Shown here: one piece after another, positions 9,001 through 30,076 of the stretch
How positions within the stretch are numbered: the first letter of the stretch is position 1
How the letters are laid out: each line of letters opens with the position of its first letter
From: a bacterium
GTDB taxonomy: Bacteria > Bacillota > Limnochordia > DTU080 > RSA5
Reading direction: 5' to 3'
Length of the DNA: 35,666 nt
NCBI GenBank assembly: GCA_002919195.1
Contig: PKEU01000141.1
Span: forward strand, 1 to 35,666
Position numbers and translations under genes: made by a program
The notes under the pieces: generated by a model
Databases searched by the model: none
The model's input: only the letters and a program-made list of their open reading frames with translations
What the model was told of the DNA's origin: nothing

Positions 9001-9975
9001 GTGGCAACGATCAAAGATGTGGCCGAGGCTGCGGGTGTCTCCCGCGCCACGGTATCGAGAGTCCTCAACGGACACCCGTGGGTGAGCGAAAAAACCAGGC
9101 AGTTGGTGCTGGAGGCCGTCAAGCGAACGAACTACCACCCCAACAACCTCGCCCGCTCTTTGCGTCTCAAGACGCCTCGATCCATCGGGGTCCTCGTCAG
9201 CAATCCCTACGGCTCGGCCTATGAGGACGTCTTCTTCGTGCGCGTGGCGCTGGGAATCGGGCGAGAGGCAGAGACTCGGGGCTATACGATGACCTTTGCC
9301 ACCCTTTCCTCTCCTGAAGATGCCCCCGAGATGGTGCAAGCCAAAACGGTGGGTGGGCTGGTCTTGGCAGGCATCACCAATAACGACTCGCCGCCTCAAT
9401 TCGTCAGCAAGACATTTCCCACGGTGATCATTGGAAAACATTACCCCAAGTTGCAACGGCCCCGTGTACTGGTTGACAACAAGACCGCGTTGAAGCGCGC
9501 CACAAGATACCTGATTCAGACCGGACACGAACGCATCGCGATCGTCATCGGTCCCCGCCGGCTTTACGCCTTCGCGGATCGTCTGGCCGGGTACCGAGAG
9601 GCCCTGCTTGAAGCTGGATATCCGTACTCCGAAGACCTCGTTGTCGAATTGCCGCGCTTTACCGTTCACACCGGGTTTGAAGCGTATCGCATTTTGCTTG
9701 CCATGCCGCAAAAGCCGACAGCGGCGTTAATTTGCGATTCGGCAATGAGCAGCGGCGCTCTTCAAGCCCGGGCGCTCTTTCCCAGCGGCTTAGAGCTGGT
9801 AACGTACGGAGATCCCGAAACGCTGGGAATCGCCGCGCCGTTGGCCGTGACGACCCTGCGGCTGAGCGCCAACGAAATTGGGGCCGCCGCGGCGCGGCTG
9901 CTCATCGACGCGATCGAGGGGCAAGACCCGCCGAAAGAGGTTTCGATCGTGCCCGAGATTCACGTCGTGTCGTAG
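9001..9975 (+). CDS. LacI-family transcriptional regulator
   Basis: 324 residues. The DNA-binding helix-turn-helix and hinge helix occupy about residues 1-55: TIKDVAEAAGVSRATVSRVL, then NNLARSLR at the hinge. The rest is a periplasmic-binding-protein-like sensor domain, with SIGVLVSNPYGSAYEDVFF opening the first lobe and VTYGDPETLG / LTTLRLSANEIGAAAARLL near the end. The start is GTG 9001 with AGGAG upstream. It closes the rightward SDR-importer operon, so it probably represses its own operon and possibly the divergent importer, releasing DNA when the transported sugar or a derivative binds. Candidate sites are 2426-2439 and 3712-3725. The consensus for this particular protein is not known. 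Confidence 0.95.
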   Translation: MATIKDVAEAAGVSRATVSRVLNGHPWVSEKTRQLVLEAVKRTNYHPNNLARSLRLKTPRSIGVLVSNPYGSAYEDVFFVRVALGIGREAETRGYTMTFATLSSPEDAPEMVQAKTVGGLVLAGITNNDSPPQFVSKTFPTVIIGKHYPKLQRPRVLVDNKTALKRATRYLIQTGHERIAIVIGPRRLYAFADRLAGYREALLEAGYPYSEDLVVELPRFTVHTGFEAYRILLAMPQKPTAALICDSAMSSGALQARALFPSGLELVTYGDPETLGIAAPLAVTTLRLSANEIGAAAARLLIDAIEGQDPPKEVSIVPEIHVVS

Positions 9976-10034: not shown

Positions 10035-11372
10035 TTACCCCCTTGGGCAAAGGCCATCCCGCAGCATCTCCAGGAAAGTCTCCGCTTCGCGAAAGACGCG
10101 CTCAAGCTCATGCAATCCCTTTTGCGGATGCTCTGCCAGCTCGCCGCGGGCGCGCTCGCTCACCAATTCGGCGACCATCAACACCAACTCGATCGCATCC
10201 TCCGGCGAAACACCGGGGCGAATCGGCTCTGTATCGATGCCGTCTAAGAGCAGCCTCCATCCCAGCTCGATCCCTTGGCTCATGTACTTCTCCATGGAGG
10301 CGCGGACGGACGGCGGAGGATCGGCGAAAGCCGACATCACCAGTTGATAATGCACGGGCTCGGCCTGGAAAATCTCGAGCTTTCGCTGCATCCATGTGTA
10401 CATCCGTTGAAAGAGATCGGGTTCGGGCTGGGGAAGCCCGTCGAAAAACCTCTCAGAGATGCGGGTAAAGGAGTCGGCCACCGCAGCCAGGTAAAGATCC
10501 GCCTTGGAGCCGAAATAGTGAAAGATCAGCCCCTTGGCCACGCGGGCCTCTGCGGCGATCGCCTCAGCCGAAGCGCCCTCATAACCTCGCTCGGCAAAGA
10601 GCGCCTGGGCCGTCCGCAAGATCCGCTCTCGCCGGTGGTCGCCCTCGCCGGCCGCAGGGGCTAATCCAGCCGACAGGGCGATAAAGGCTTCCGGCTTCCA
10701 GGCGCGCAGCGGTTGAGGACGGGAGGCAGCCTCCGGCTGGTAGGCTCCCCATTTCAGGATCTCGGTGAAACGGCGGACGCGCTCGCGCACGCCCTTGGCA
10801 TCCAGGATGGAGGCAATCTCCCCCTCATTCTCTCCCGCCTGCTGAACCGCTACAAGAAATCGCTCTTCCAGGGCCTCCGCCACCAGGCTCAAGAGCTCCA
10901 GGGCCGCGGCAAAATCCCAACCGCGCCGGAAAACCTCGATTTGGACGCCTTCTTTAAAGATGGCTCGCAAGTTGTCGTACGCCCTGTCCACGCGACGAGT
11001 GGCTTTGCTCGCCACCAGGCGGCTGCGCCCGCGAAACTGCGCAATAAACCGGGCGAGCACCGGATGAGCCTCAATTGCTCGCGCCCGAAGGACGACAAAC
11101 TCTTCCAGCCGTTGGAAGGGGTCCGCCGGGAGCGCTCCTCGGGGCGGCGCGAAGAGATGCTCGCACGCGTGGTCCAGCGCCGCGTCAAACAGACCTTCCT
11201 TGGATGTGAAATACCGGAAGATCAATCCCTTAGCCACCTGGGCCTTGCGGGCGATCCGGTTGGTGGAGGCGCCTTCACGACCGTGCTCGGCAAACTCCTG
11301 GACGGCCGCCGCCAAGATTAACTGCCGGCGGTCGCCCAACTCGGGCTCAAGATGCACACGGGGAACGTTCAT
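10035..11372 (-). CDS. Double-length TetR-family regulator with two DNA-binding domains
   Basis: About 445 residues, roughly twice a normal TetR protein (about 200). Two complete TetR units lie in tandem. The first helix-turn-helix is at about 17-66 (GASTNRIARKAQVAKGLIFR, YFTSKEGL) and the second at about 249-298 (GASAEAIAAEARVAKGLIFH, YFGSKADL). By direct reading, 28 of 48 residues of these two regions are identical, so an internal duplication is likely. Each is followed by its own helical ligand-binding-type domain; the halves are joined by a Pro/Ala-rich linker around 210-245. The start is ATG 11372 with GGAGG 9 bases upstream; the frame stays open to 11432 but that start has no ribosome site. 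It lies 81 bases after the beta-barrel-like gene and probably belongs to the same operon, making it the likely controller of the promoter at 16676-16704. Ligand unknown. Confidence 0.92.
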   Translation of the reverse strand: MNVPRVHLEPELGDRRQLILAAAVQEFAEHGREGASTNRIARKAQVAKGLIFRYFTSKEGLFDAALDHACEHLFAPPRGALPADPFQRLEEFVVLRARAIEAHPVLARFIAQFRGRSRLVASKATRRVDRAYDNLRAIFKEGVQIEVFRRGWDFAAALELLSLVAEALEERFLVAVQQAGENEGEIASILDAKGVRERVRRFTEILKWGAYQPEAASRPQPLRAWKPEAFIALSAGLAPAAGEGDHRRERILRTAQALFAERGYEGASAEAIAAEARVAKGLIFHYFGSKADLYLAAVADSFTRISERFFDGLPQPEPDLFQRMYTWMQRKLEIFQAEPVHYQLVMSAFADPPPSVRASMEKYMSQGIELGWRLLLDGIDTEPIRPGVSPEDAIELVLMVAELVSERARGELAEHPQKGLHELERVFREAETFLEMLRDGLCPRG

Positions 11373-11453: not shown

Positions 11454-12593
11454 TCAAAAGAAATAGCGAAGACCGAGAGAAGCCGAAAAGACCGCAGGAT
11501 AGGAAACAGGCGCAACGCGATGGGCCGCAAACTCAAGGGCGCTCACACCGGGCATTAATTCGCGACTGATGACGATGCCCCATCGATAGGGCCGCAAGCT
11601 ACCCGCGGCTCTTGGCTCGCCTCCAGAGCCGTCATGGCCGCCGACCTCCGCCTTCCCGCCGCCCAGGCCGGCCGACGCGTCCGCGACGATGGTGAGCCCG
11701 GGTAAAGGCGCATGCGCTAGCTGAACGGCGACCAGCGGCCTGGGGGCTTGGCGTGAGGTGGCGCTTCCGCTGGCGGGATTAAAAGGGGCCCTGGCAACTT
11801 CTGCGGTCCACAAGAGGTCACCGACGTATCCCGTAGCGCCCACGCTGAAGCGGATCCCCGCCTCTCCCGCAACGCGCCACCCTTCGCCGTAGACGACGGT
11901 CGACCCGGCGAGCCCGCTCCAGCCGGCGCCGGCGACAAGGCCGCTTTCACTCCGCAGAAGATGCCCCGTAAGCTCCCAACCCAAAGCCGCCCGGCGCCAC
12001 CCGACGACCGGCGTCCAAGCCTCACCGTCCCAGGCACCCACGAGTTGCAACCGCCCCGCCTTCAGGTAGACGTCGGCGCGGATGCCGTCGGCGCCGGGCC
12101 GGCGCCCAGCCTCGTCGGGCGGCGTCAATGTGTAAGGCAGCGTGAGCCGTGCCGTCTCGAGCGGGAGACCAAAGCGGCCCACGTAAAGGTCCACCGCCGG
12201 AAAACGAAAACCGGCCAGCCCCCGCGTCCACACAACTGAGGCCTCGGTCTTTCCGCCCGCCTTCGTCAGGTCCAGGACCCACCGCGGCTCGGCTGTCGCT
12301 TCCGCCCACCACTCTGGAAAAGCGGCCACCGGTCCCTTCGGGTCCATCCGCGCCTCCACGCGGCTCTCCAGGACTCCCAGCAACTGCGGCGCGCCGGCGT
12401 CCACGTGGTGATGCACCACAAACCCGCCGATCTCGCCCCGCACGTCCGCTTGCAAATCCGTGGAGACATCCATCGCCGGCGCTCCCATCGCACGAGCCAA
12501 GCCCCAACCGGAGGGGGCCAGGGCCAAAGCCGACAGGACGCCCAAGCTGGCCCAAATCACTCGCAGGATGACCGCACAACCCCCGCGGCTCAC
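11454..12593 (-). CDS. Predicted outer-membrane beta-barrel-like protein of the Lol-like cassette
   Basis: 379 residues. The N-terminus (MSRGGCAVILRVIWASLGVL to GLARAMGA) is a signal peptide. The mature part is rich in alternating polar/hydrophobic strands with Gly and aromatic residues, such as GIRADVYLKAGRLQLVGAWD and AALGWELTGHLLRSESGLVA. The protein ends VFSASLGLRYFF: a C-terminal strand closing with Phe is the classic recognition signal of outer-membrane barrels assembled by BamA. Start is GTG 12593, overlapping the ATPase stop in GTGA, which implies translational coupling. I recognise no named family. Alternative readings are a secreted beta-rich protein or a surface protein. If it is a barrel, the organism has an outer membrane and this gene may provide the outer end of the cassette. 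Confidence 0.75.
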   Translation of the reverse strand: MSRGGCAVILRVIWASLGVLSALALAPSGWGLARAMGAPAMDVSTDLQADVRGEIGGFVVHHHVDAGAPQLLGVLESRVEARMDPKGPVAAFPEWWAEATAEPRWVLDLTKAGGKTEASVVWTRGLAGFRFPAVDLYVGRFGLPLETARLTLPYTLTPPDEAGRRPGADGIRADVYLKAGRLQLVGAWDGEAWTPVVGWRRAALGWELTGHLLRSESGLVAGAGWSGLAGSTVVYGEGWRVAGEAGIRFSVGATGYVGDLLWTAEVARAPFNPASGSATSRQAPRPLVAVQLAHAPLPGLTIVADASAGLGGGKAEVGGHDGSGGEPRAAGSLRPYRWGIVISRELMPGVSALEFAAHRVAPVSYPAVFSASLGLRYFF

Positions 12594-13285
12594 GCGGCGT
12601 TCACCCTTTCATCGGAGACGACGCGACCGTCTTCGAGGCGGACGATGCGGGTGACGTGCTCGAGCAGCCGGGGATCGTGCGTGGAAAAGAGAAACGTCAT
12701 GCCCCGCTCGACGTTGAGCCGTTTCATCAACTCGATGAGGGAGAGGCCCGATTGGGAGTCCAAATTGGCCGTCGGTTCGTCCGCCAGGATCACCTGGGGT
12801 TCGGCGGCCAAAGCCCGTGCGACGGCGACCCGCTGCTGCTGGCCTCCCGAGAGCTGGTTGGGCCTTCGATGGGCGAGATCGGCGATCCCCAGCGCCTCCA
12901 GGGCTTGCATCGCTTTCTCTTCGCGGACCTTTTTCGGCACGCCGCGCAGCTCCAACACAAACGCTGCATTCTCCAGCGCGCTCAAGACCGGGATGAGATT
13001 GTACGCCTGAAAGACGAAGCCGATTTCCTGCAAACGCAATCGCGCCGATGAGACCGGATCCAATTGGTCCGTGCGCCGCTCGCCCAAGTAGGTCTCGCCT
13101 GACGACGGCTTGTCGAGGCAGCCTAGGATGTGCAGCAGCGTGCTTTTCCCCGAACCGCTGGGACCGACGATCGCGGTAAACTCCCCCGGCAAAACCTCCA
13201 GGTCGACACCCCGCAAAGCCGGAGTGGAGACGCCATCGCTCCCATACACCTTCGTCAAGCCCACGGCGCGCAAAATCGGTTTCAT
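12590..13285 (-). CDS. ABC transporter ATP-binding protein, LolD/MacB type
   Basis: 231 residues, a typical stand-alone LolD/FtsE-type ATPase. Walker A GPSGSGKST is at 41-49, the ABC signature LSGGQQQR at 145-152, Walker B VILADEPTANLD with catalytic Glu at 170, and the switch His in FSTHD. The Q-loop is in VFQAYNLIPVLSALENAAF, typical of the LolD/MacB branch. I choose ATG 13285 because GAGGAGGG lies 8 bases upstream; an in-frame extension to 13357 would overlap the preceding gene. It sits 20 bases after one FtsX permease and overlaps the beta-barrel-like gene by 4 bases. It should power the two FtsX-type permeases at the cytoplasmic face, by the mechanotransmission known for LolCDE and MacB. 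Confidence 0.95.
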   Translation of the reverse strand: MKPILRAVGLTKVYGSDGVSTPALRGVDLEVLPGEFTAIVGPSGSGKSTLLHILGCLDKPSSGETYLGERRTDQLDPVSSARLRLQEIGFVFQAYNLIPVLSALENAAFVLELRGVPKKVREEKAMQALEALGIADLAHRRPNQLSGGQQQRVAVARALAAEPQVILADEPTANLDSQSGLSLIELMKRLNVERGMTFLFSTHDPRLLEHVTRIVRLEDGRVVSDERVNAA

Positions 13286-13305
13286 GAGGCTCGCCCTCCT
13301 CTTAC

Positions 13306-14532
13306 CTAGGCTACGTGACGCATCGCTTCCACCGGCTGCAACCGGCCCGCCACCCACGCGGGCCAGAGGGCAGCCAGCAGAGCCGTGGCGATGGTAAAGG
13401 CCATCGTGATCGCCACTTGCTGCAACGTGACCGACGGATACAGCACCGCCGGAAGGCCAAACTCGGCCAGAGCCTCATCCAGACCTGGAAAGGCAACCCC
13501 CCGGCTCATCCATGCGATACAAACTCCGCTCACCGCAAGACCTACGGCGCTGCCTGCGAGCACCAGCACCAGGCTTTCGGCAAAGATCATGCGCATCACC
13601 CGCCACCGGTCGGCGCCGACGGCGATCATCACGCCAAACTCTCGGATCCGCTCCACAAGGCCCAGGTAAATCGTGTTGACGACCAACAGCCCGGCGAGGA
13701 CAAAGATAAAAAAGGAAAAGACGACCATCGCCGGGTCCATCAGATCCAAAATGGCGGCCAAATCGGGCGACGCTTCACGCCACGTCTCCACCGAAACGCC
13801 CGCGCCCAGCACGCTCGTAAGACGCTCCTTGACGCGATGGATCTCCTCTTCCCGGGGCACCCCGCGCCCCGCCCCAAGATGCACCTCAAAACGAGTGACC
13901 GCCCCCGGCGCGGCCAGCTCCTGGGCGCCTTCCAGCGAGAGGTAAGCGACCTTGCCCTCGTAGGACGCTTGCGGAAACTTCAAGATGCCGACCAGCACGT
14001 AGGCCGAGGCGCCCCACCCCTCGGTGCCCGGCGCAAAGACGTACACAGGATCTCCAATGTCAAGATGAAGGGTCCGGGCCAGCGCCTCTCCCAGGGCGAT
14101 CTCGTCCAGGCTGCCGGGACTTGGCAGGCGGCCGGCTGCCAAATACTCTAGTTCAAAGCGCTCCCGGAGCGTCGGGTCTTGCTTCAAACCGATCACGAGC
14201 ACTCCCCGGGAACGGGTCTCGCCGCTCACGAGCGCGGGCACCTCGAGCACGCGCGCCATCCGGACGCCCGGCAGCTCCTCCAAGAGCGCAGCCTCAAGCT
14301 CTGCCGCCCCACGAAGGAGGCTCGCGTCAAAGTCCTGCGCGTCTTTCGCCCGGGCGCTCTTGACCTGCAGGTGCCCAAAGTCGTTGGTGAGCACCTCCAT
14401 CATTCCGGTCTTGGTGGCCTGCGTGAAGGAGAAAAAGACCAACGTGAAGATGACGACCACCGCCACCGCGCCCGCGGTGACGATGCTCCGGGCTTTATGA
14501 CGCCAGACGTTGCGCCAGGCTAGAGCCCACAC
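13306..14532 (-). CDS. FtsX/MacB-family ABC permease (LolC/LolE-like)
   Basis: 408 residues with the 1+3 helix layout of FtsX/MacB-type permeases. There is a first helix after AWRNVWRHKARSIVTAGAVA, a large extracytoplasmic domain of about 220 residues (with IALGEALARTLHLDIGDPVY, a MacB periplasmic-core phrase), then three helices beginning MVVFSFFIFVLAGLLVVNT. The motif IREFGVMIAVGADRWRVMRM is the hallmark of the FtsX domain. The GTG at 14532 immediately follows the TGA of the LolA-like gene, with GAGGGTG 7 bases upstream, so translation is coupled. It probably forms a heterodimer with the permease at 15342-16592, as LolC does with LolE. Cargo is unknown. Confidence 0.92.
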   Translation of the reverse strand: MWALAWRNVWRHKARSIVTAGAVAVVVIFTLVFFSFTQATKTGMMEVLTNDFGHLQVKSARAKDAQDFDASLLRGAAELEAALLEELPGVRMARVLEVPALVSGETRSRGVLVIGLKQDPTLRERFELEYLAAGRLPSPGSLDEIALGEALARTLHLDIGDPVYVFAPGTEGWGASAYVLVGILKFPQASYEGKVAYLSLEGAQELAAPGAVTRFEVHLGAGRGVPREEEIHRVKERLTSVLGAGVSVETWREASPDLAAILDLMDPAMVVFSFFIFVLAGLLVVNTIYLGLVERIREFGVMIAVGADRWRVMRMIFAESLVLVLAGSAVGLAVSGVCIAWMSRGVAFPGLDEALAEFGLPAVLYPSVTLQQVAITMAFTIATALLAALWPAWVAGRLQPVEAMRHVA

Positions 14533-15306
14533 TCACCGGCACCCTCTTTCCAAGGCCTGGAGCGTAAAGCAGCTGTCGGGGATGGCGATGCCAAACGCCA
14601 CGTCGGAAAGGCGGGCAACCGTCCGGTAACCCTGCCGGACCTTGTCTTCGACCACCATGACGAGGGGAATCCGCTTGCTCCCTACCTCGAGGTAATCGGA
14701 CAGCGCGAGTCGCTTGACGACCTGTCCCCGCTGGTCGTAGTAGTCAACCCATTGGGGCGCCAAGGTGCGAGCTTCCACGCCAATGACAACCTTGCCGTAC
14801 GGAGTCGGCGCTCCCGGCTTGGGAGTGAGCTCCAGCTCGAGGACCGTACCGTCCGAAGGCTTCAGGGCTGGCTCGTAATCCCTCTCTAAATCGCGGCCCA
14901 CGATATCGTTGTAGCTCACGTCCGACCCCAGAAAGGCGTCGCTGCGGCCACTGGGCGGCAGCCTCAGCGAGCGGCCGAGTCGCGGGTTGTACACCCAGAG
15001 ATCGTCGCCGTCCATGAGAAACGCCTGGCCCGCATCGCGAGCGGGCGCGACCACCCGGATGAGCCCCCGCTCCTCCCCGTCGCTGATCACGTCCATGACG
15101 TACTCGACGCTTCGTCCGGGCCGCTCTACGGCGAAGGTGTAAGTCCCCTGCCTCGTGCCTCCCCGCAGGTTGTCGATCACGGCCTCCAAGATCGCCTCTG
15201 CTTCCGCATCACCTGCTCCTTGGATCGCGGGCGAAAAAACAGCGCCCGCGCCCAGAATCATGGCGACGACCCAACCCACGACAGTCCAACGGCGCTTTTG
15301 GGACAT
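14533..15306 (-). CDS. LolA-like outer-membrane lipoprotein-sorting family protein
   Basis: About 257 residues. A signal peptide (KRRWTVVGWVVAMILGAG to QGAGDA) is followed by a beta-rich domain of the LolA-like COG2834/PF17131 type. The diagnostic stretch is DDLWVYNPRLGRSLRLPPSG then FLGSDVSYNDIVGRD, with GKVVIGVEARTLAPQWVDYYD and KRIPLVMVVEDK later. No lipobox Cys is seen, so it should be soluble outside the membrane. I prefer ATG 15306, spaced about 10 bases from AAAGG; ATG 15315 is possible but abuts the GGG. In diderms LolA carries lipoproteins across the periplasm, and relatives of this subgroup may carry other lipids. Its place between two FtsX permease genes makes it the likely extracytoplasmic carrier or acceptor of this ABC system. 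Confidence 0.88.
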   Translation of the reverse strand: MSQKRRWTVVGWVVAMILGAGAVFSPAIQGAGDAEAEAILEAVIDNLRGGTRQGTYTFAVERPGRSVEYVMDVISDGEERGLIRVVAPARDAGQAFLMDGDDLWVYNPRLGRSLRLPPSGRSDAFLGSDVSYNDIVGRDLERDYEPALKPSDGTVLELELTPKPGAPTPYGKVVIGVEARTLAPQWVDYYDQRGQVVKRLALSDYLEVGSKRIPLVMVVEDKVRQGYRTVARLSDVAFGIAIPDSCFTLQALERGCR

Positions 15307-15341
15307 GGCCCTCATCCCTTTCCCATGGTGCTAAGACTTCG

Positions 15342-16592
15342 TCACTCGCTGCGCATCGCTTCGGCCGGCCTAAGGCGCGCCGCCCGCCGGCCAGGAAGGA
15401 GCGCGCTCAAAGCCACGGCGCACGCGATAACCATCCCTGAGTACAGCGCGTAAACCGCTCGCACCGCGCCGTACACTTCGTCGCTGAGCCCCGCGCTGGG
15501 AGTGCTCGCGCTGACGGCCGCAAAGACCGGGCCCAAGATGTTGTAGCGGGACAAAACCCAGGCACCGGCATAACCGGCGCCAATGCCGATCAACCACCCT
15601 AACGCGCACGCCATCAGCGCCTCTAACGTCACCAATAGCCCGAGCCGCCTGGGCGCAAGGCCCAACGCGGCGACAACCCCAAGCTCCCGGGTCCTCTCCA
15701 TCACGCTGACAAACACGGTCGTGGTGACGGCCAGAGCGGCAAAGATGTAAATGATCGCCGCCATGACGTGAGCGAAGGCTTTGTTGGCCTCAACGTCGGT
15801 CTTGATCGGTCCCACAAGCTCCCATACTTCCCGGGCGGTCACGCCGTCTGGGAGCAAAGCTTGCACGCGGCGCGCTACGGCCGCCTCCGCGCCTCGGGGC
15901 ACGTCCAGATCGATCGTGGTCGCGGTGGGAACCCCGGTGAGCCGGCGGGCATCATCCAATCCGATGATCACGGCCGTTTCGTCGACAGCCAGGATCCCGG
16001 TGCTCGCAAGGCCCACCACTTTGAGCCCCAACGCCTGCGGCCCCGCGAGCGAGCCCGCGCTCAACACGACCTGCTCGCCCACACGCGCGTCGATCCGGCG
16101 GGCGAGCTCCTTTCCCAGCACCACTTCACCCGGACCTGCAAGCCACCGTCCCTCTGCCAGTTTCCCGGGAATGCGGCTTAAGCGGACCTCCCCCTCAGGA
16201 TCGACGCCGCGGACCTCGACCCCTTGAGTCACATAGGCCGACTGCAAAAGGGCGGGAAACTGAATCCGCGCCGTCGCCGACCGGACTTGGAACACGCCGG
16301 GTAGCGACGAAGCAAAACCGAGGTCCGTCAGGTGATTTTCGGGATCAGGATCGACAAACCAAGCATCCCGCGCGATCCGCACGGGCGCGACGATGTAGCG
16401 GGCGTACGATTGCACCACCGATTCCGCGTACCCGTCCACGAAGCTCCAGTAGACGATGGTGAAAAAAGTCGCGTAGGCCACGACCACCAAGAGGAGGACG
16501 GTCCTTTGTCGATGGCGCCAGAGGTTGCGCCAGGCAAGACGGGCGAGGGGAGCCGCAGGAGAAGATCCTTGCGACGAGGCGTGGTGCGGCAT
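15342..16592 (-). CDS. FtsX/MacB-family ABC permease, first gene of the Lol-like cassette
   Basis: 416 residues. Like the permease at 13306-14532 it has RLAWRNLWRHRQRTVLLLVV as first helix, an extracytoplasmic domain of about 230 residues (VVLGKELARRIDARVGEQV is the MacB-core phrase), and three C-terminal helices containing ERTRELGVVAALGLAPRRLG, the FtsX hallmark. I choose ATG 16592: AGAGGTG lies about 11 bases upstream, and the frame beyond it to 16736 would run through the promoter and operators. Its two halves differ enough from the other permease that a heterodimer is expected. The LolA-like gene follows 26-35 bases later. Confidence 0.9.
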   Translation of the reverse strand: MPHHASSQGSSPAAPLARLAWRNLWRHRQRTVLLLVVVAYATFFTIVYWSFVDGYAESVVQSYARYIVAPVRIARDAWFVDPDPENHLTDLGFASSLPGVFQVRSATARIQFPALLQSAYVTQGVEVRGVDPEGEVRLSRIPGKLAEGRWLAGPGEVVLGKELARRIDARVGEQVVLSAGSLAGPQALGLKVVGLASTGILAVDETAVIIGLDDARRLTGVPTATTIDLDVPRGAEAAVARRVQALLPDGVTAREVWELVGPIKTDVEANKAFAHVMAAIIYIFAALAVTTTVFVSVMERTRELGVVAALGLAPRRLGLLVTLEALMACALGWLIGIGAGYAGAWVLSRYNILGPVFAAVSASTPSAGLSDEVYGAVRAVYALYSGMVIACAVALSALLPGRRAARLRPAEAMRSE

Positions 16593-16653: not shown

Positions 16654-16667
16654 TTGACCACGTGGTC
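16654..16667. promoter_or_regulatory. Operator O2 (palindrome) just downstream of the cassette's -10
   Basis: TGACCACGTGGTCA is a perfect 14-bp palindrome. On the minus-strand promoter it covers roughly +2 to +15, where a bound repressor blocks transcription. It shares the TGACCA/TGGTCA half-sites with O1; centres are 36 bp apart. Confidence 0.8.
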
Positions 16668-16675
16668 ACCAATTT

Positions 16676-16704
16676 CAGTATAACGCACATTGACCACTTG
16701 GTCA
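16676..16704 (-). promoter_or_regulatory. Sigma-A-type promoter of the Lol-like cassette
   Basis: On the minus strand TTGACC (16704-16699) is followed by exactly 17 bases and TATACT (16681-16676): five of six matches at -35 and four of six at -10. The start would be near 16669, leaving a leader of about 77 bases. The -35 lies inside palindrome O1 and the start region inside O2, so the promoter looks tightly repressible. Confidence 0.82.
16689..16704. promoter_or_regulatory. Operator O1 (palindrome) over the cassette's -35
   Basis: TTGACCACTTGGTCAA has perfect 7-bp arms (TTGACCA / TGGTCAA) around CT. It includes the -35 hexamer of the leftward promoter. Size and symmetry are typical of TetR-family operators. 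The tandem TetR protein (10035-11372) is the natural candidate binder by context. Confidence 0.8.
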
Positions 16705-16892
16705 ATACGAAAGAAAACACCGGCCCGCGCTGGCACACGTGCGCTTCCCGCGCCCGGGGGCCAGCGAGGCCGGTCAAACTCCGCTCAAACCAAAACGGCG
16801 TAGCGCCTTGTCACTGCTGCATCCCGGACAGACCGAAGGGCCCGGAGCCTAGCCGCTCGTCAGTTTGCCGTGTCAACGCGTTCTAGCGCCCG

Positions 16893-17759
16893 TCAAAACC
16901 GGATAGGTTGACTCCACGCCTTGCGTCCCTGGGCGTCGATTGCCTCGATGCGGCAGTACCCGTCGGACCAATGCTTCATGCTGGCTTTGTTGAGGGTTTC
17001 GCCAGGCTTTGCCCACACGGACTTGCCGCGCCCGCGATTGGACACAAACACGATGCGCGCGACGTCGGAAGTCTCCACGTGAATCCAGCCGTCTTCGACC
17101 CGCAGGTCACGAATCTCCGGCCCTTGAGTTGCGTAAAAGTGGCCCGCGCGCAGCGCCTCCTTGATGCTCTCCTGCGTGAGCTCCCGAGCACGCACCATCA
17201 CCCAACCCACAGCGCCATCGTAACTGTAATGATGCGTATCGTCGGTCGCCAGGCCCCAAGTGTCGTAGCCATGGTGCAAAAGGTCGTCCCAGTGCACATC
17301 GCTCAGGGCTTTCCCGCACTCCATGCAGCCCGAGTTGTACACCTCGATGCCGATGGCGCCGGTGAGATGTTCGATCGCCTGTCGCTCAAGGCCCAGCCAG
17401 TAAGGATGGGCGATAAATGCGACCCCGTCGTGCGCCAGCACCTGGTCGATGAGCCCCTGTCCGGTGCGGATTTCGGGATCTTGCTCAAACGGCCGCACGC
17501 CGACCCCCACGATGTGGTACTCGTAACCGTTGGGATCCCAGCAATTGAGCTCGATGCCGTGCATGGCGAGAAAAGTATCGGTGGTGAACTCCTCGACAGG
17601 TGTCGTCTTCCGATGATCGGTGACAGCGACGAAGTCGTACCCGCGCGTTTTGTAAAATTCGATCGCGTCGGCGAGCTCGAGACGGCCATCGGATGCGGTG
17701 GTGTGCATGTGAAGATTCCCTTTGTACCAGCGGCCTTCAACAGGAAACGGATGGATCAT
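16893..17759 (-). CDS. PHP-domain metal-dependent phosphoesterase (CehA/COG0613-like)
   Basis: 288 residues, cytoplasmic. PHP metal-binding motifs are in order: H17-x-H19 in GNLHMHTTASDG with D24, T-D48-H49 in FVAVTDHRK, the Glu of MHGIELNCWD, the His of YEYHIVGVG, a further His in FIAHPYWLGL and a DxH in ATDDTHHYS. The spacing fits a trinuclear-metal PHP fold. The C-terminal part (about 200-288) is a beta-rich extension ending KAWSQPIRF, as seen in CehA-like members. Start ATG 17759 is preceded by GAGGAGG. It overlaps the SoxR-type gene by 23 bases and is therefore in one leftward operon with it. The substrate (a phosphoester or other hydrolysable ester) is unknown; linkage to a redox regulator is not expected from the family. 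Confidence 0.9.
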   Translation of the reverse strand: MIHPFPVEGRWYKGNLHMHTTASDGRLELADAIEFYKTRGYDFVAVTDHRKTTPVEEFTTDTFLAMHGIELNCWDPNGYEYHIVGVGVRPFEQDPEIRTGQGLIDQVLAHDGVAFIAHPYWLGLERQAIEHLTGAIGIEVYNSGCMECGKALSDVHWDDLLHHGYDTWGLATDDTHHYSYDGAVGWVMVRARELTQESIKEALRAGHFYATQGPEIRDLRVEDGWIHVETSDVARIVFVSNRGRGKSVWAKPGETLNKASMKHWSDGYCRIEAIDAQGRKAWSQPIRF

Positions 17760-18252
17760 GTTGCCCCCTCCTCTGCGGATCGTCGCAGGTCAAATCATCG
17801 CCCAGCCAAAAACGAGGGCCCGGCCCGAAACGGGCCGCGCGGTCCTGCGGGTTGAGCAGCGCGCACTTTTCCATCGAGAGGCAGCCGCACCCGATGCAGC
17901 TTGTCAAACCCTCTCGAAGCCGCAAGAGCTGGGCGATCTGTGCGTCGATCCGCTTTTGCCATCCTGCAGCCAAGCGGCTCCAATCTTGATCTGTAGGGAT
18001 GCGGTCAACAGGAAGTTTGTCGAGTTCGGCCCGGATCTCCTCCAATGAAAGGCCCACTCGCTGGGCAAAAACGATAAAGGCCACTCGGCGGGCCACGGCG
18101 CGCGGGTAACGACGGTGACCTGCCGCGTTGCGCTGGGAATGGATCAGGCCGCGCTCTTCGTAATACCTGAGCGCGGAGGGAGCGACGCCGGTGCGCTCCG
18201 CCAACTCGCCGATGGTCAGGAGTTGAAAGGGGCTTTTGACCGTTTCCATCAT
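17737..18252 (-). CDS. soxR: SoxR-type redox-sensing MerR-family activator
   Basis: 171 residues. The MerR DNA-binding domain is at about 11-80 (LTIGELAERTGVAPSALRYY, EERGLI, GHRRYPRAVARRVAFI), followed by the dimerisation helix and a cysteine cluster C119-x2-C122-x-C124-x5-C130 in SCIGCGCLSMEKCALLNPQD, which is the [2Fe-2S] ligand set of SoxR at the very positions known in E. coli. Known role: oxidation or nitrosylation of the cluster switches on a promoter with an over-long spacer. The C-terminal tail extends about 35 residues beyond the cluster. Start is the first of two adjacent ATGs at 18252, with AGGA 7 bases upstream. The divergent MFS gene carries the matching promoter; the operator is shared, so autoregulation is possible. 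Confidence 0.95.
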   Translation of the reverse strand: MMETVKSPFQLLTIGELAERTGVAPSALRYYEERGLIHSQRNAAGHRRYPRAVARRVAFIVFAQRVGLSLEEIRAELDKLPVDRIPTDQDWSRLAAGWQKRIDAQIAQLLRLREGLTSCIGCGCLSMEKCALLNPQDRAARFGPGPRFWLGDDLTCDDPQRRGQHDPSVSC

Positions 18253-18345: not shown

Positions 18346-19845
18346 GTGGCACGACCCAATGACTCCCACGAAGCAAGCCTTGTGTCCTCTCCACGCCGGC
18401 TGCTGCTCGTCATCGTCTCGGCCGTGTTTCTCACGACCTTCACAGGCTCGATGATCAACGTCATGATCCCTGTGATCCGGGCAGAGTTTAACGCATCGCC
18501 AGCGCTGATCGGTTGGGTGGTCACAGGGTACTTGCTGGCCTACGCCGTCGCCGTGCCCATCCTCGGCAGGGCGTCGGATCGCTACGGCGTGCGGCGCCTC
18601 TTTGCCATCGGCCTCACGGGGTTTGCGGCAGGCGGCGTCGTTTGCGCGGTCGCACCGAGCCTTGCGGTCCTGATCCTCGGGCGCACGCTTCAAGGGTGCC
18701 TCGGAGCGGCTGTTCCCGCCCTGGCCTCGGTCGCCGTCGCCCGCACCTTCCCACCCGGCCGCCGCGGCGCCGCCCTAGGCATGATCGCCTCTACGGTCGG
18801 CATCGGGCAATCGGCCGGACCTGTCGTCGGCGGCGCTTTGGGCGAATGGCTGGGCTGGCGAGGCCTCTTTGGGATCCCGATCGCCCTGGCCCTCATCCTG
18901 GTTCCGCTCGCTTTGCGCACCCTCCCCGACGGCCGGGCTGCCCAAGTCCGCCGCTTTGACGCCGCGGGCGGCGTCCTCCTTGCCGCCAGTGCCGGATTGT
19001 TTCTCTTTAGCATCACTCAGGGACAGACCCTGGGCTTTGCGGCTCTTTCTTCGTGGGGATCGCTGCTCATCGCTATCGTGGCGGGCGTGACACTCATCCG
19101 GCGCAGCCAACGGGTGCCCCATCCCTTCGTCCCGCTCGCCCTCTTTCACAACCGGAGCTACGTGGCAGTCTTCTTTACCGGGCCTCTCGCCCAATTTGTC
19201 AACCTTTCCGTCCTGATGCTGGTGCCGCTCCTCGTCGTCGAGGTCAATGACCTCTCTTCCAGCGCCACGGGGCTCGTTCTCATGCCCCAAGCCCTCGCGA
19301 TGGCCCTCGCCTCCCCGTTCGCAGGGCGCTTGTCCGATCGCGTCGGCGTGCGCCGCCCGATCCAAATCGGTATCGGGCTCATGATGCTCACGGTTGCGGC
19401 ACTCTCCGTGTGGGCCGGCATAGCCCCGGCAGCGATCGCCGTCTTTATGGCGCTCCTTGGCGCAGGGATGGCGTGCGTGCAGTCCCCCTCCAACAATGCG
19501 GCCGCAAACTCGCTCCCTGAAAAAGACGTGGGCGCGGGCATGGGCTTGTTCCAAGGGACGGGCTTTTTGCTGGGAGCCGCAGGTCCGGCGATTGCTGGAG
19601 CCCTGCTCGCAGCGCGCCAAGAAGCCGCCTCGAGCGGGTGGAACCCCTTCCACGCCTTTCAAGCGGCCCCGTTTTCCGACGTTTTCCTGTTGCTGCTCCT
19701 GCCGTTTGTCGCGGCCCTTTTGGCGACGCGCCGGCTCCCCGCGGCCCAGGGCGCGACCCAGACCCAAAAGGCGCACCACACCGACCCCGTGGATCAAGCT
19801 CAACCCACTCCTGTGATGGCTGGGCCCAGGCAAGAGCCGCGATAG
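18346..19845 (+). CDS. MFS drug-efflux transporter (DHA2/EmrB-QacA-like)
   Basis: 499 residues, with about 14 predicted membrane helices. Motif A is GRASDRYGVRRLF in the 2-3 loop and the antiporter motif C is visible as GIGQSAGPVVGGAL. A second-half copy of motif A is GRLSDRVGVRRPI. The start is GTG 18346, with GAGGTG 8 bases upstream. The position behind a SoxR-type promoter implies that it exports redox-cycling compounds such as quinones, phenazines or similar antibiotics; this is how SoxR works in many non-enteric bacteria. The last 25 residues are polar and Gln/Thr-rich. A hairpin follows the gene at 19923-19955. Confidence 0.93.
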   Translation: MARPNDSHEASLVSSPRRLLLVIVSAVFLTTFTGSMINVMIPVIRAEFNASPALIGWVVTGYLLAYAVAVPILGRASDRYGVRRLFAIGLTGFAAGGVVCAVAPSLAVLILGRTLQGCLGAAVPALASVAVARTFPPGRRGAALGMIASTVGIGQSAGPVVGGALGEWLGWRGLFGIPIALALILVPLALRTLPDGRAAQVRRFDAAGGVLLAASAGLFLFSITQGQTLGFAALSSWGSLLIAIVAGVTLIRRSQRVPHPFVPLALFHNRSYVAVFFTGPLAQFVNLSVLMLVPLLVVEVNDLSSSATGLVLMPQALAMALASPFAGRLSDRVGVRRPIQIGIGLMMLTVAALSVWAGIAPAAIAVFMALLGAGMACVQSPSNNAAANSLPEKDVGAGMGLFQGTGFLLGAAGPAIAGALLAARQEAASSGWNPFHAFQAAPFSDVFLLLLLPFVAALLATRRLPAAQGATQTQKAHHTDPVDQAQPTPVMAGPRQEPR

Positions 19846-20220: not shown

Positions 20221-21537
20221 CTACTTTCGGAGCTGCTCCGGTCGAAAGATGGTGGGGTTGCCGGTAAGTCCCGTCCGGCGCACGTCGACGTCGACCGTGA
20301 TGTGGACCGGAAGCCGGCGAAAGTGATCGTGCCAGTCTTGGCGCAGCGTCCGCCACAGCTGCGGGTAGTTTCTGCGGATCAAAGCGCCAAAGCCAAAGAC
20401 GTCTGCGTTGAGCTCCTCTTGAGCGAGGCGGAGCATCGCTTGCATGCGCTGTTTTACACTGTCAGCCAAGGCCTCCTCGAGCTCGGGGATGACCTTGGGA
20501 TCCGTCAAATCGAGCCCTGCCTGGTTGGTGACGATGTCGTCGACCGCGTGGGCGTGCACGTTGACGACCACCTGCCCGTCTTGGATCTCCGTGTGAAAGT
20601 GCACTCGGGCCCGCACGATGAGCGGTGTGATGTGATTAGGCTCCTTAAGCCCGCTTCCGGGACTCCCTGGACCGGTGCCAGGAGGCGCTTCCCGCTCAAT
20701 CAACGCCTCCGAAGGCGATAGGTCGGTTCTTTCAAGCTGGGGAGACGGCGCGCCCGTCTCGGGCGGCCACTCGATCGTCGCGGCCGCAAAAGGCGCTTCG
20801 TCCACCAGCCAAGCGAGCCCCCGCGCAAGATCCAGGGGAGCAAAGCCGACAAGGCGGTCGCCGCGGAAAATGCCCACGCCCGTCAGCTCGTACTCCTGGG
20901 CCCGCGTCCCCACTTCGAGCTGCGTCTCGATGCGCGGGACCAATCCTACCGCCGGGATAAAGGGGTCCATGCCCTCGGCGGCCAAGGCGATCGCGACCTG
21001 TCGTATTTCACGCTGAGGGACAATCCTTTGGCCCAGCGTGTTGGCCAGCGCCAAGACCGGAAGCCTGCCAAGGCGCGGAGCCGCTCGTAGGAGCCTCGCG
21101 CCCTCCCCTTCCGTCACGACCACATCCGCTGAGATCCTGAGCTCCCGCATGCGGGTGAGGCTGTCAAACACGGGTCCAATTCCCGACCGGGCCAGCTCCT
21201 CTCCGAGGACGATCACCCGGATATGAGAGGTAAACAGGCGCCGGGGCACCTTGGCCTGGAGCAGGCTAAACGCCTCGGGCAAAGTGGCCCCAGTCGCCTC
21301 CATGATGTAAAAAGGATCTCGCAGCCCCCCGCCGGAGCCGACGCCGCCAGGATTGGTGAGCTCGGAAGGGATCAAAAACTGTAAGGAGACTTTGAGAAGG
21401 CCGTCCTCCGTGCGATCGATGGCCATGATGTCCGCGATGGCAAGCTCGTTCAGCTCAATCCGGTCGTAGCAACCGCCCAAGAGAAGCAAGAGCGCGCAGC
21501 AAGGCAAAACCCGGAGCCAGCTCCTAGCGCTTCGCAT
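20221..21537 (-). CDS. gerC: Ger(x)C family spore germination lipoprotein (germinant receptor C subunit)
   Basis: 438 residues. A lipoprotein signal peptide ends in LLLLLGGC with Cys23 as lipid-attachment site, followed by YDRIELNELAIADIMAIDRT, a typical Ger(x)C start. Domain phrases RRLFTSHIRVIVLGEELARS and EYELTGVGIFRGDRLVGFAP match the family. An extra Pro/Gly/Glu-rich stretch of about 45 residues (around 255-300, including APPGTGPGSPGSG) interrupts the region before the last domain, making the protein longer than the usual 370-400 residues. The last domain (RARVHFHTEIQDGQVVVNVH to PVHITVDVDVRRTG) is intact. It overlaps gerB by 14 bases. It sits on the outer face of the spore inner membrane and forms the receptor with the A and B subunits. 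Confidence 0.93.
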   Translation of the reverse strand: MRSARSWLRVLPCCALLLLLGGCYDRIELNELAIADIMAIDRTEDGLLKVSLQFLIPSELTNPGGVGSGGGLRDPFYIMEATGATLPEAFSLLQAKVPRRLFTSHIRVIVLGEELARSGIGPVFDSLTRMRELRISADVVVTEGEGARLLRAAPRLGRLPVLALANTLGQRIVPQREIRQVAIALAAEGMDPFIPAVGLVPRIETQLEVGTRAQEYELTGVGIFRGDRLVGFAPLDLARGLAWLVDEAPFAAATIEWPPETGAPSPQLERTDLSPSEALIEREAPPGTGPGSPGSGLKEPNHITPLIVRARVHFHTEIQDGQVVVNVHAHAVDDIVTNQAGLDLTDPKVIPELEEALADSVKQRMQAMLRLAQEELNADVFGFGALIRRNYPQLWRTLRQDWHDHFRRLPVHITVDVDVRRTGLTGNPTIFRPEQLRK

Positions 21538-22630
21538 CCACTCTCACTCCCACTCCCCGGATCGCGGCGACGATCAGCACCACGGCGGGCAGCACCAGTT
21601 GAAAGAACTGCGTATACGGCGGCCAAAAGTAGGCCAGCATGTGCCCGTGCTCGACAAAGTTTTGAAGGTGCCCGGCTGCGTACGCCGATACCAGCGCCGA
21701 CATGGGAAAGACCAACGGGCGCCAGTCCCTCAACCCAAACACTTGGGCGAAGGTCACAACCGCCGCGTACAAGTGCACCGCCAGCTTAAAACAGCTGCCA
21801 CCCACCCAAAACCCGATCACCAGCGGATCAATGCGGGCCAACACTTGGCCAAACTTTGCGATCCGCGCGACCTTAAAAAACGGCCAGAGAAACTTGTCGG
21901 TGATGGGGCCAAAGACGCTGAGCGAGACGATGCTCACCAGCGTCAACGCCGCCACGATGACGCCCAGCGCGGCGTAGCTCGCCTTGACGCCTTGATCTCG
22001 CCGCGTCACCGAAGGCAAGAGCACCGCGAGGAGGATCACCTGTCCGGTAAAGGCTTGAGTGATCAAGCCCGAGGCGAGCACTGGACGCAGCCCATTTTCA
22101 AGGACGGGCTTGAGGAGATTGGCGTCCGTGCTGGAGTACGCCATGCCGACAATGACCAAGAGCAGGACGACGGCGCCCGGTGTAAACAACTCGCCAAGCC
22201 GGGCCAAGATTTCCGGCCCATGGCGCACAGCGACCGCCGCTGCAAAGCCTGCGAGCCCCACCGCCAGCACCATCGGTGTGCGTGGGTGCGCGGCTGCGAC
22301 GAGAAAATCGGCAAACTCCCGGGAGATCGCAGCGTCTAGGTGAAAGAAGTACCAAAAGAGGAGCAATCCGCACAGTTTCCCCGGGATCCTTCCCAACACT
22401 TTGGGAGCGTACTCGACAAAGGTCTCATCCGGAAACCTTGCGGCTAAGCGACCGCACAACCAGATCACCAAAGCCGAAGCGGGAAAGGCGACGAGGGGCG
22501 CCATCCACGCGTCCTGCCGGGCAAAGGTGGCCGTGGTTCCCGGCAAACCCAAGATGGCTGTTGACCCGATACCGGGGATCAAGAGCATCGCAAGCTGGAA
22601 GGGACTGATCTTAGTCTCTGCCGGGCGCAC
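21524..22630 (-). CDS. gerB: GerAB-family germination permease (germinant receptor B subunit)
   Basis: 368 residues and about ten predicted helices, related to amino-acid/polyamine transporters. ISPFQLAMLLIPGIGSTAIL near the start and TFVEYAPKVLGRIPGKL are family-typical phrases. In the spore inner membrane this subunit binds the germinant. The start is GTG 22630, with GGAGGG 8 bases upstream inside the end of gerA, overlapping that gene by 20 bases; the gerC start overlaps its end by 14 bases. The A-B-C order and overlaps are as in characterised ger operons. Germinant identity cannot be read from sequence. Confidence 0.94.
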   Translation of the reverse strand: MRPAETKISPFQLAMLLIPGIGSTAILGLPGTTATFARQDAWMAPLVAFPASALVIWLCGRLAARFPDETFVEYAPKVLGRIPGKLCGLLLFWYFFHLDAAISREFADFLVAAAHPRTPMVLAVGLAGFAAAVAVRHGPEILARLGELFTPGAVVLLLVIVGMAYSSTDANLLKPVLENGLRPVLASGLITQAFTGQVILLAVLLPSVTRRDQGVKASYAALGVIVAALTLVSIVSLSVFGPITDKFLWPFFKVARIAKFGQVLARIDPLVIGFWVGGSCFKLAVHLYAAVVTFAQVFGLRDWRPLVFPMSALVSAYAAGHLQNFVEHGHMLAYFWPPYTQFFQLVLPAVVLIVAAIRGVGVRVDAKR

Positions 22631-24305
22631 GGGCCGTTCCCTCCTCTCTTGGGAAGGTCTTGTTCCCCTGTCTCAAAGGAAAATCACGACGGCGCCGGAC
22701 CCAGGCGGTCGTCACCTGGGGTCTTTTCCGCATGAGCCAACGAGGCAGCCGGATCACCGTGTCTTGCAGATCAGGCCACCGGAGGGGGCTGACAGGAGCC
22801 AGATAGGGCTGTCCAAAGGACCTCAGGGCGGCTAAGTGCAAGATCAGGAGCATGAGGCCGATGGAGATCCCCAAGAGGCCGAGGCTGCCGGCGAGGATCA
22901 GGATGAAAAACCGGGCGATGCGAAAGGCGACGCCGACGTTGAAATGGGGGACGACAAACGACGAAATGCCGGTGAAGGCTACGATAATCACGACGGGGGC
23001 GGAGACGATCTGAGCCGAGACCGCGGCCTCGCCGATGACGATAGCGCCGACGATGCCGATGGTCTGGCCGATGGGCCGCGGCAACCGGACCCCCGCCTCC
23101 CGCAGCGCTTCAAAGGTGATCTCCATGAGGAGGACTTCGGTAAAGGATGAAAAGGGAACGGCTTCCCTGGCCGCGGCGATGCTGATGAGCATGGGGGATG
23201 GGAGCATCTCCGGATGAAAGGTCGTAGCGGCGACGTAGACCGAGGGAAACAAGAGCATCAACGCGACCAGCGCATAGCGCAGTAACCGCACGAGCGTGGC
23301 GCCGTCCCACCGCTGGTAGTAGTCTTCTGCTGCGTTCATAAGCGCCCACAAGCTGGTGGGAACGATGAGAGCAAACGGGGAGCCTTCGGCCATAATGGCG
23401 ACGCGCCCCTCTAAGAGGTTGGCCACCACCACGTCGGGCCGTTCGGTGTTGAGGACCTGGGGGAAGACGGTGTAGGGTGTGTCTTCGATAAACTCTTCGA
23501 TATAGCTGGTATCGATGATGCCATCGATATCGATGGCGGTGATGCGCCGGCGCACTTCCTCAATCAGCTCGTCCGGCGCCAGGCCGCGGAGATAGGTGAT
23601 GACCACGGGCGTCTTGGTCCACCGCCCAAGGAGCAGGCGCTCAAAGCGCAAAAGAGGCGAACCAACCCGCCGCCGGATCAGTGACATGTTGGTTTGCAGG
23701 CTCTCGACAAATCCATCCCGCGGCCCCCGCACCACGGGCTCCCCGACGGGTTCCTGCACATTGCGGGTGTCGAGGCCCAGCAGTTCGACGATGATCGCCC
23801 GCGCAAGCCCTTGGACCAGCAGCGCCGTCTTGCCGTGACAGAGCTCCCGGACGACCTCGCGGAGATCTGTCTCCACCGTCACCCGGGCGCTGTTGATCAC
23901 CTGCTCTCGGATCCACGCCTCCAACCCGCCGGCACTCGATGGAACCCTAAGCCCCGCCTGTGCTGCATCGTGGGTCAGCGGTTTGATCACTTGATTCGCG
24001 ACCAGCTCCGCGCGGCCCAAGGTCTCAAAAAATACGACCGCGGCCTCGGGGCCGCCGGCGATGTGAAGATGGCGCACGACCAGGTCCGGAGCGTCGCCGG
24101 CGAGCCTCCGGAGCGTCGACAAGTTGGTCTTGAGATCTTTGCCGAGGCGCACGCCGGCCAGCCCTTCATCGACCAGCGACGCGGGCTTGCGAGCGAGTCG
24201 CTCTTGGATGGCGCGCTGCACCCAGCGATCATCAAGCGACGGATGCTGAGCCGGCGCACGGCCACGCCGCAACCAATCGAAAAACGCGCGAAACAGACTT
24301 GACAT
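22611..24305 (-). CDS. gerA: GerA-family spore germination protein (germinant receptor A subunit)
   Basis: 564 residues. A soluble N-terminal region of about 330 residues contains DLVVRHLHIAGGPEAAVVFF, then TNMSLIRRRVGSPLLRFERL and DIDGIIDTSYIEEFIEDTPY, and ends in RPDVVVANLLEGRVAIMAEG, all hallmarks of GerAA-type proteins. About five membrane helices follow (LLMEITFEALREAGVRLPRP, GQTIGIVGAIVIGEAAVSA). The C-terminus is basic and disordered. ATG 24305 is preceded by GGTGGAG 10 bases upstream, which lies within one arm of an inverted repeat (24310-24391). It leads the ger operon. Together with B and C it forms a germination ion channel and receptor in the spore inner membrane. Confidence 0.95.
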   Translation of the reverse strand: MSSLFRAFFDWLRRGRAPAQHPSLDDRWVQRAIQERLARKPASLVDEGLAGVRLGKDLKTNLSTLRRLAGDAPDLVVRHLHIAGGPEAAVVFFETLGRAELVANQVIKPLTHDAAQAGLRVPSSAGGLEAWIREQVINSARVTVETDLREVVRELCHGKTALLVQGLARAIIVELLGLDTRNVQEPVGEPVVRGPRDGFVESLQTNMSLIRRRVGSPLLRFERLLLGRWTKTPVVITYLRGLAPDELIEEVRRRITAIDIDGIIDTSYIEEFIEDTPYTVFPQVLNTERPDVVVANLLEGRVAIMAEGSPFALIVPTSLWALMNAAEDYYQRWDGATLVRLLRYALVALMLLFPSVYVAATTFHPEMLPSPMLISIAAAREAVPFSSFTEVLLMEITFEALREAGVRLPRPIGQTIGIVGAIVIGEAAVSAQIVSAPVVIIVAFTGISSFVVPHFNVGVAFRIARFFILILAGSLGLLGISIGLMLLILHLAALRSFGQPYLAPVSPLRWPDLQDTVIRLPRWLMRKRPQVTTAWVRRRRDFPLRQGNKTFPREEGTARAPGRD

Positions 24306-29791: not shown

Positions 29792-30076
29792 CACGGCCAT
29801 CCTCCCTTGCTTGCACCGTGCGGGGACGGCGCTCTTGTCGCGTGAGGCTTAAACAATCACTACGCTACACGCCGCAACTTCCTTTCTCTTCCAAACGAGA
29901 ATCGAAATTTCGGCCGCAGCGCTGGGCGATCGCCTCAACGCGCAACTTGTCCTTCTCGTCATAACGGCGGATCAACACGGGTTGAAACTTCCTTATATCG
30001 TTTTGTGCATCCCGTTCGGCCAAATCGCGTGACAACAGCGCGCGGGGCGACTTGTCCGGTGCCGTCAATCCCCCCC

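Follow-up and report, generated by a model that had tools for sequence, protein, structure and literature searches.

The window (the whole 35,666-nucleotide stretch analysed, from a heat-loving compost bacterium) contains an operon of six genes, all on the minus strand, in the order permease 1, LolA-like carrier, permease 2, ATPase, barrel, and a regulator with two TetR units, here called the double TetR. Together with the predicted promoter and two candidate operators, its features are the following:

16690..16705: candidate operator 1, TTGACCAAGTGGTCAA, covering the -35 hexamer
16677..16705, minus strand: sigma-70-like promoter, TTGACC-17-TATACT (one found; mean of 0.0 in shuffles)
16654..16669: candidate operator 2, GTGACCACGTGGTCAA, just downstream of the -10 hexamer
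15342..16592, minus strand: permease 1, LolC/E-like (MacB_PCD and FtsX)
14533..15315, minus strand: LolA-like carrier (PF17131)
13306..14532, minus strand: permease 2, LolC/E-like (Pfam FtsX and MacB_PCD)
12590..13357, minus strand: ABC ATPase, LolD/MacB-like (ABC_tran)
11454..12593, minus strand: probable outer-membrane beta-barrel, 379 residues with a C-terminal Phe, conserved in the operon
10035..11372, minus strand: double TetR gene, 445 amino acids, the last gene of the operon
11178..11318, minus strand: TetR_N DNA-binding domain of the N half, residues 19-65
10638..10748, minus strand: linker of 37 residues (bounded in the AlphaFold model by the last N-half helix, which ends at 208, and the first C-half helix, which starts at 246)
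10482..10622, minus strand: TetR_N DNA-binding domain of the C half (Pfam TetR_N)

The gaps between successive genes are 26, 0, -52, -4, and 81 bases, with the open reading frame starts as listed; by reading, we propose the ATG at 16592 as the start of permease 1, because the longer frame would cross the operators. A LolA-like carrier, two LolC/E-type permeases, and a LolD-type ATPase make up the gene set of a LolCDE-LolA system, but the operon is called only Lol-like, because the permeases (76.6 and 77.8 bits vs. 362.45 for LolC/E) and the ATPase (207.8 vs. 307.75 for LolD) fall short of the NCBIfam equivalog cut-offs. The barrel protein has no match in Pfam or NCBIfam. An outer membrane is described for cultivated members of the class, the Limnochordia (PMC11456536).

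Several other loci share the window. A LacI-type regulator (9001-9975), convergent with the double TetR gene, ends a sugar ABC transporter cluster, and a SoxR-type MerR regulator (17737-18252; above its equivalog cut-off) is divergent from an MFS transporter (18346-19845). There is also a GerA/B/C-type spore germination operon (20221-24305), in a genome whose class has an outer membrane, as well as a 1271-residue enzyme with GH10, GH43, and carbohydrate-binding modules (25985-29800) that adjoins a GH43 xylosidase.

The double TetR gene is a single open frame; its start codon, the ATG at 11372, is preceded by a GGAG-type ribosome site. A first-pass annotation had read two complete TetR units in this frame, and that reading holds: TetR_N matches the protein twice, and the halves, searched separately as that annotation had advised, score 60 and 58.7 bits against a cut-off of 24, placing both helix-turn-helix (HTH) regions in the TetR family. 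The segments that follow the HTHs are all-helical in both halves (AlphaFold) and match many structures of TetR-family regulators (TFRs), consistent with ligand-binding and dimerization domains; no Pfam C-terminal model scored above its cut-off for them. One unbroken chain therefore carries two full TFR units. By alignment, the two HTH stretches (residues 15-62 and 247-294, an offset of 232) are identical at 28 of 48 positions, the count that the annotation had obtained by direct reading.

AlphaFold models, computed from an alignment of five sequences, reached a pTM of 0.83 both for the window protein (pLDDT 86.5) and for the orthologue in genome G066 (pLDDT 86.9). As a rule of thumb, two independent domains of equal size would give a pTM nearer 0.5; the halves are therefore predicted to be held in a defined arrangement. 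The top full-length Foldseek match of both models is Mce3R (9b7y; approximately 440 columns), with TM-scores of 0.48/0.54 and 0.49/0.53 for the two models and an rmsd of 9.4-9.8. Mce3R is also first in the VIA-align list of one model and second in that of the other, with Z-scores of 13.8 and 14.6 over 343 and 360 residues (rmsd 6.9-7.1). Because this structural match is loose, the mutual orientation of the halves probably differs from that in DNA-bound Mce3R. A domain swap between the halves, suspected from VIA-align rows spanning both, was set aside; only the end residues of those rows are given, and further rows, for identical or comparable proteins, are confined to one half. The suggestion that a covalent pair could behave as a built-in dimer is made plausible by these predictions, with the same pTM obtained twice and Mce3R as the best full-length match.

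The window belongs to a draft genome of 219 contigs, in which a double frame could conceivably reflect a frameshift, readthrough, or the assembly fusion of neighbouring tetR genes; alternatively, the C half might be translated from an internal start. Yet the same unbroken frame occurs in five genomes. Nine of 72 genomes of the class match the double TetR at 1e-20, and the full double frame is found in the window's own genome (G000), G005, G066, G067, and G070; the four orthologues are 46-50% identical to the window protein, and none of the frames is interrupted. When the orthologues were compared, no conserved internal start codon was seen in the linker or near the beginning of the C half, which argues against separate translation. 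The first-pass annotation had named two observations that would speak against a genuine fusion, an assembly or sequencing error and relatives that always occur as two genes; neither was made, as all five genes found are single frames, and no pair of separate neighbouring genes equivalent to the two halves was seen in the genomes searched. We consider an artefact extremely improbable and, for practical purposes, already refuted.

A profile scan of named genomes, with the aligned N ligand domains and linkers as the query, recovered exactly the four orthologues above, in the metagenome-assembled genomes (MAGs) ZC3RG10, ZCTH02-B6, RSA5, and ZC3RG07; the lone double TetR protein, unlike the alignment, gave no match in a scan of the contigs of these named genomes. 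ZC3RG10 is assigned to the GTDB family ZCTH02-B6 of the Limnochordales (PMC8434746), and three of the four orthologue MAGs come from thermophilic compost, as indicated by isolate names and the same source. Among 398 sampled genomes of the phylum, the profile of N ligand domain and linker matches 18, namely those of the doubles in G000 and G005 and 16 genomes whose matches are taken as singles. Two long frames, in G125 (667 amino acids) and G079 (636 amino acids), were considered as further doubles and rejected: upstream, both read as sequence of low complexity, and TetR_N matches the G079 frame only once.

The gene neighbourhood is conserved along with the frame. The full gene order is kept in four of the five genomes with the double TetR (the window, G070, G066, and G005), and in G067 a short contig holds the barrel and double TetR genes only. 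The upstream DNA (16654-16704) that had been put forward as a binding target for the regulator is likewise real: it corresponds to the two candidate operators, both 16-bp palindromes of the TGACC-N4-GGTCA type. In all four testable loci with the double TetR, both palindromes retain 10 of 10 conserved positions, and their spacing is 36 bp in the window and G066 and 37 bp in G070 and G005. The exact sequence TTGACCANNTGGTCAA occurs once in the window's own genome, at operator 1; with one mismatch it is found at operator 2 and at three other places, all of which read as inside open frames. A wider regulon was considered and rejected, since the other near-motif sites that we examined lie in open frames (seven loci in this and related genomes, judged by frame only).

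The palindrome is not confined to loci with the double TetR. TGACC-N4-GGTCA is present in 4 of 47 single-TetR loci (5 sites vs. 0.14 expected from base composition), and two of the palindrome-bearing single TetRs, those of G021 and G019, are related to the C half (identities of 34.7 and 32.5%), suggesting that the palindrome either predates the fused protein or extends beyond it. The G019 locus has two palindromes 39 bp apart, indicating that a pair of palindromes needs no double chain. The earlier suggestion that a covalent pair could bind two operators at once may therefore hold, as two candidate operators exist, but a palindrome pair does not call for it.

Operon copies that lack an adjacent double TetR gene offer a natural comparison. 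A match to the LolA-like carrier was found in 14 of 72 genomes; we examined seven stretches, from G071, G069, G067 (two stretches), G064, G065, and G014, while G011, G012, G015, and G045 were left out and the remaining four were genomes with the double or the window's own. G065 and G014 have a LolA-like gene without the rest of the operon in the stretch (tblastn). The operon of G064 is distant, with permeases 46-47% identical, and its stretch shows no palindrome and no TetR match; the frame immediately preceding this operon (L132, 7300-7600) reads like a regulator of another family. In the three close copies (G071, G069, and contig C219 of G067), one palindrome retains 10 of 10 positions and the other 7 of 10, in three of three cases, although G069 and C219 resemble each other so closely that they represent roughly a single case. 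C219 breaks off short of the expected position of the regulator, and it may have entered the G067 MAG by contamination (4% contamination is listed for this MAG). In G071 and G069, no double-TetR match to the window protein at 1e-20 was found anywhere in the genome. The decayed second palindrome of such copies (L128, 1700-1960; L129, 6620-6830) amounts to a natural loss experiment.

The unbroken frame, its conservation and synteny, and the conserved operator pair, all read from genome sequence, together with the predicted fold and arrangement of the halves, point to a natural single-chain TetR pseudo-dimer that probably acts as a self-regulating repressor of the Lol-like operon. The mechanism that we infer includes intramolecular pairing, repression, autoregulation, and a response to ligand. 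The N and C halves, with their near-identical recognition helices, would pair within the chain, so that one double TetR molecule could read both half-sites of one palindrome. Both palindromes flanking the promoter would be occupied, by two such molecules or by paired chains, and this occupancy would block RNA polymerase and shut the Lol-like operon. The double TetR would also repress itself, because its gene is the last of the operon that it closes. The repressor would be released when one diverged pocket, or both, takes up a ligand, which would be a hydrophobic or amphipathic substrate of the envelope transporter. Weighing against this pseudo-dimer are the loose match to Mce3R and the small alignment, of five sequences, behind the models; in addition, fixed pairing of unlike halves could allow an asymmetric operator, as in Mce3R, yet the operator stayed palindromic, and the operons of G071 and G069 persist without the double TetR.

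The main rival is a bridging tetramer, in which two chains would pair N half with N half and C half with C half, with one pair on operator 1 and the other on operator 2, clamping both palindromes across the promoter. Such symmetric pairs would fit symmetric operators, and each half has all the TetR helices, including the two C-terminal ones that normally dimerize. The spacing of the palindromes, nearly fixed at 36-37 bp in all four operons with the gene, is in keeping with a bridge, as is the survival of a single intact palindrome in all three close operon copies without it. Conversely, the pTM of a lone chain already implies a defined arrangement of the halves, the single TetR of G019 is also associated with two palindromes, and Mce3R is described as working in an intramolecular mode (PMC11667970). 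Weighing these points, we regard the bridging tetramer as rather unlikely and retain the intramolecular pseudo-dimer as the preferred reading.

Aligned locally, the N and C halves score 179; for the segments beyond the HTH the score is 43, a value reached by 1 of 500 shuffles, so these segments are weakly but probably related. The ligand domains share a mean identity of 23% over the five doubles, in agreement with the earlier impression that the sensor domains have diverged; the integration of two ligands, which that annotation had derived from it, would be a possibility. The annotation had also held that the 28 of 48 shared HTH residues imply an internal duplication, which we do not find established, because single TetRs of related genomes come as close to either half (31 of 48 between the C-half HTH and L050, 30 of 48 between the N-half HTH and L066) and the trees are indecisive. 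In the tree, the N halves form one clade (99/97) and the C halves another (100/100), as expected if a single fusion preceded the divergence of the five genomes. The two clades are not sisters, and the C clade joins 24 singles at 93/83; holding N and C together nevertheless costs little, with AU p values of 0.36 in the first tree (47 singles, a set from which single L009 and the double frames had been removed) and 0.31 in the second (42 singles, with five long-branch singles left out). A common clade of N and C halves is neither shown nor rejected by these sequences, and fusion by duplication or by the joining of two paralogues would fit either way.

The age of the halves and their divergence outside the HTH would also suit a chain whose HTHs have different targets, with one half bound to this promoter and the other to a second promoter, coupling two regulons. 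Against this, the two recognition helices, VAKGLIFRYF and VAKGLIFHYF, hardly differ, and the one-mismatch sites other than operator 2 read as inside open frames, as judged with one motif in the window's own genome. We consider this two-target arrangement very unlikely.

A TetR_N scan of the window's own genome and ten others, a non-random set picked because they had already been met, found eight frames with two TetR_N domains: the five orthologous doubles, plus three that belong to a different, second kind and come from G067, G070, and G071 (L153, 5961-7364; L154, 3391-4890; L155, 7572-8927). In this second kind the halves are sisters (100/97 in the tree) and the HTHs differ; in G067 it precedes, by reading, an alpha/beta hydrolase and a FabG-like reductase. 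Given these two separate lineages, double TetRs seem to have arisen at least twice in the class. A broader scenario, which we offer tentatively and consider possible but doubtful, is that thermophilic, two-membraned Bacillota of this class repeatedly made TetR homodimers covalent while keeping the ancestral palindromic operator, the second lineage having evolved separately. Once fused, the repressor would no longer depend on the concentration of monomers, and one of its pockets could become available to a second signal, which would put the envelope transporter under a natural switch with two inputs.

A single-chain double TetR has one well-studied precedent, Mce3R, and no other natural example with a structure was found in the literature searched. 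The protein described here would be a second, non-orthologous to Mce3R, with a conserved pair of candidate palindromic operators and a conserved operon. With natural operon copies that have one operator and no regulator, the benefit that covalent dimerization brings to a TetR could be studied cleanly here, and the two unequal pockets would allow one to ask whether one ligand or two are sensed. The findings also suggest that a Lol-like transport operon is under regulation in diderm Bacillota, in which lipoprotein traffic is poorly known. LolA-LolCDE clusters are described in the diderm Halanaerobiales (PMC5007114), where carrier, two permeases, and ATPase are likewise clustered; relative to those described there, the window operon adds a probable barrel and the double TetR.

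Among the matches listed in literature searches on double, tandem, or duplicated TetRs, Mce3R and engineered single-chain TetR were the only relevant items. Mce3R of Mycobacterium tuberculosis is, like the double TetR, a natural single chain of two TetR units, whose arrangement is defined in Mce3R and predicted to be so in the double TetR; as described, each Mce3R chain forms one omega-shaped pseudo-dimer, with a four-helix bundle shared by its halves, that further pairs into a dimer of chains, and both HTHs are needed for its non-palindromic site (PMC11667970). It regulates a neighbouring lipid-transport operon and itself from two operator sites at the promoter, an organization for which the window has candidate counterparts. 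The Mce3R sites are asymmetric, 25 bp long, and 53 bp apart, whereas the candidate operators described here are palindromes in all four loci and lie closer together, and the Mce3R gene is upstream of its operon, whereas the double TetR gene closes its own. Sequence similarity between the two proteins is limited to a stretch in the HTH region (phmmer 4.5e-6, residues 244-318), and 9b7y is absent from the profile matches of the double TetR at 1e-10; without homology along both halves, the double TetR is not, on sequence, an orthologue of Mce3R.

The closest solved relative of the C half, in both sequence and fold, is TM1030 of Thermotoga maritima (2id6, 1zkg, and 4i76), which matches over the whole half with a profile E-value of about 5e-20 and, unlike the double TetR, is a single-unit TetR. 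The tet operators of engineered single-chain TetR are, like the candidate operators here, palindromic. In those single-chain Tet transregulators, two TetR units are likewise joined head to tail, and with a flexible linker the protein is described as folding inside one chain, the chains not dimerizing with one another (PMC1797012 and its ref. 18). They are man-made from copies of one TetR, whereas the halves of the window protein are natural and diverged.
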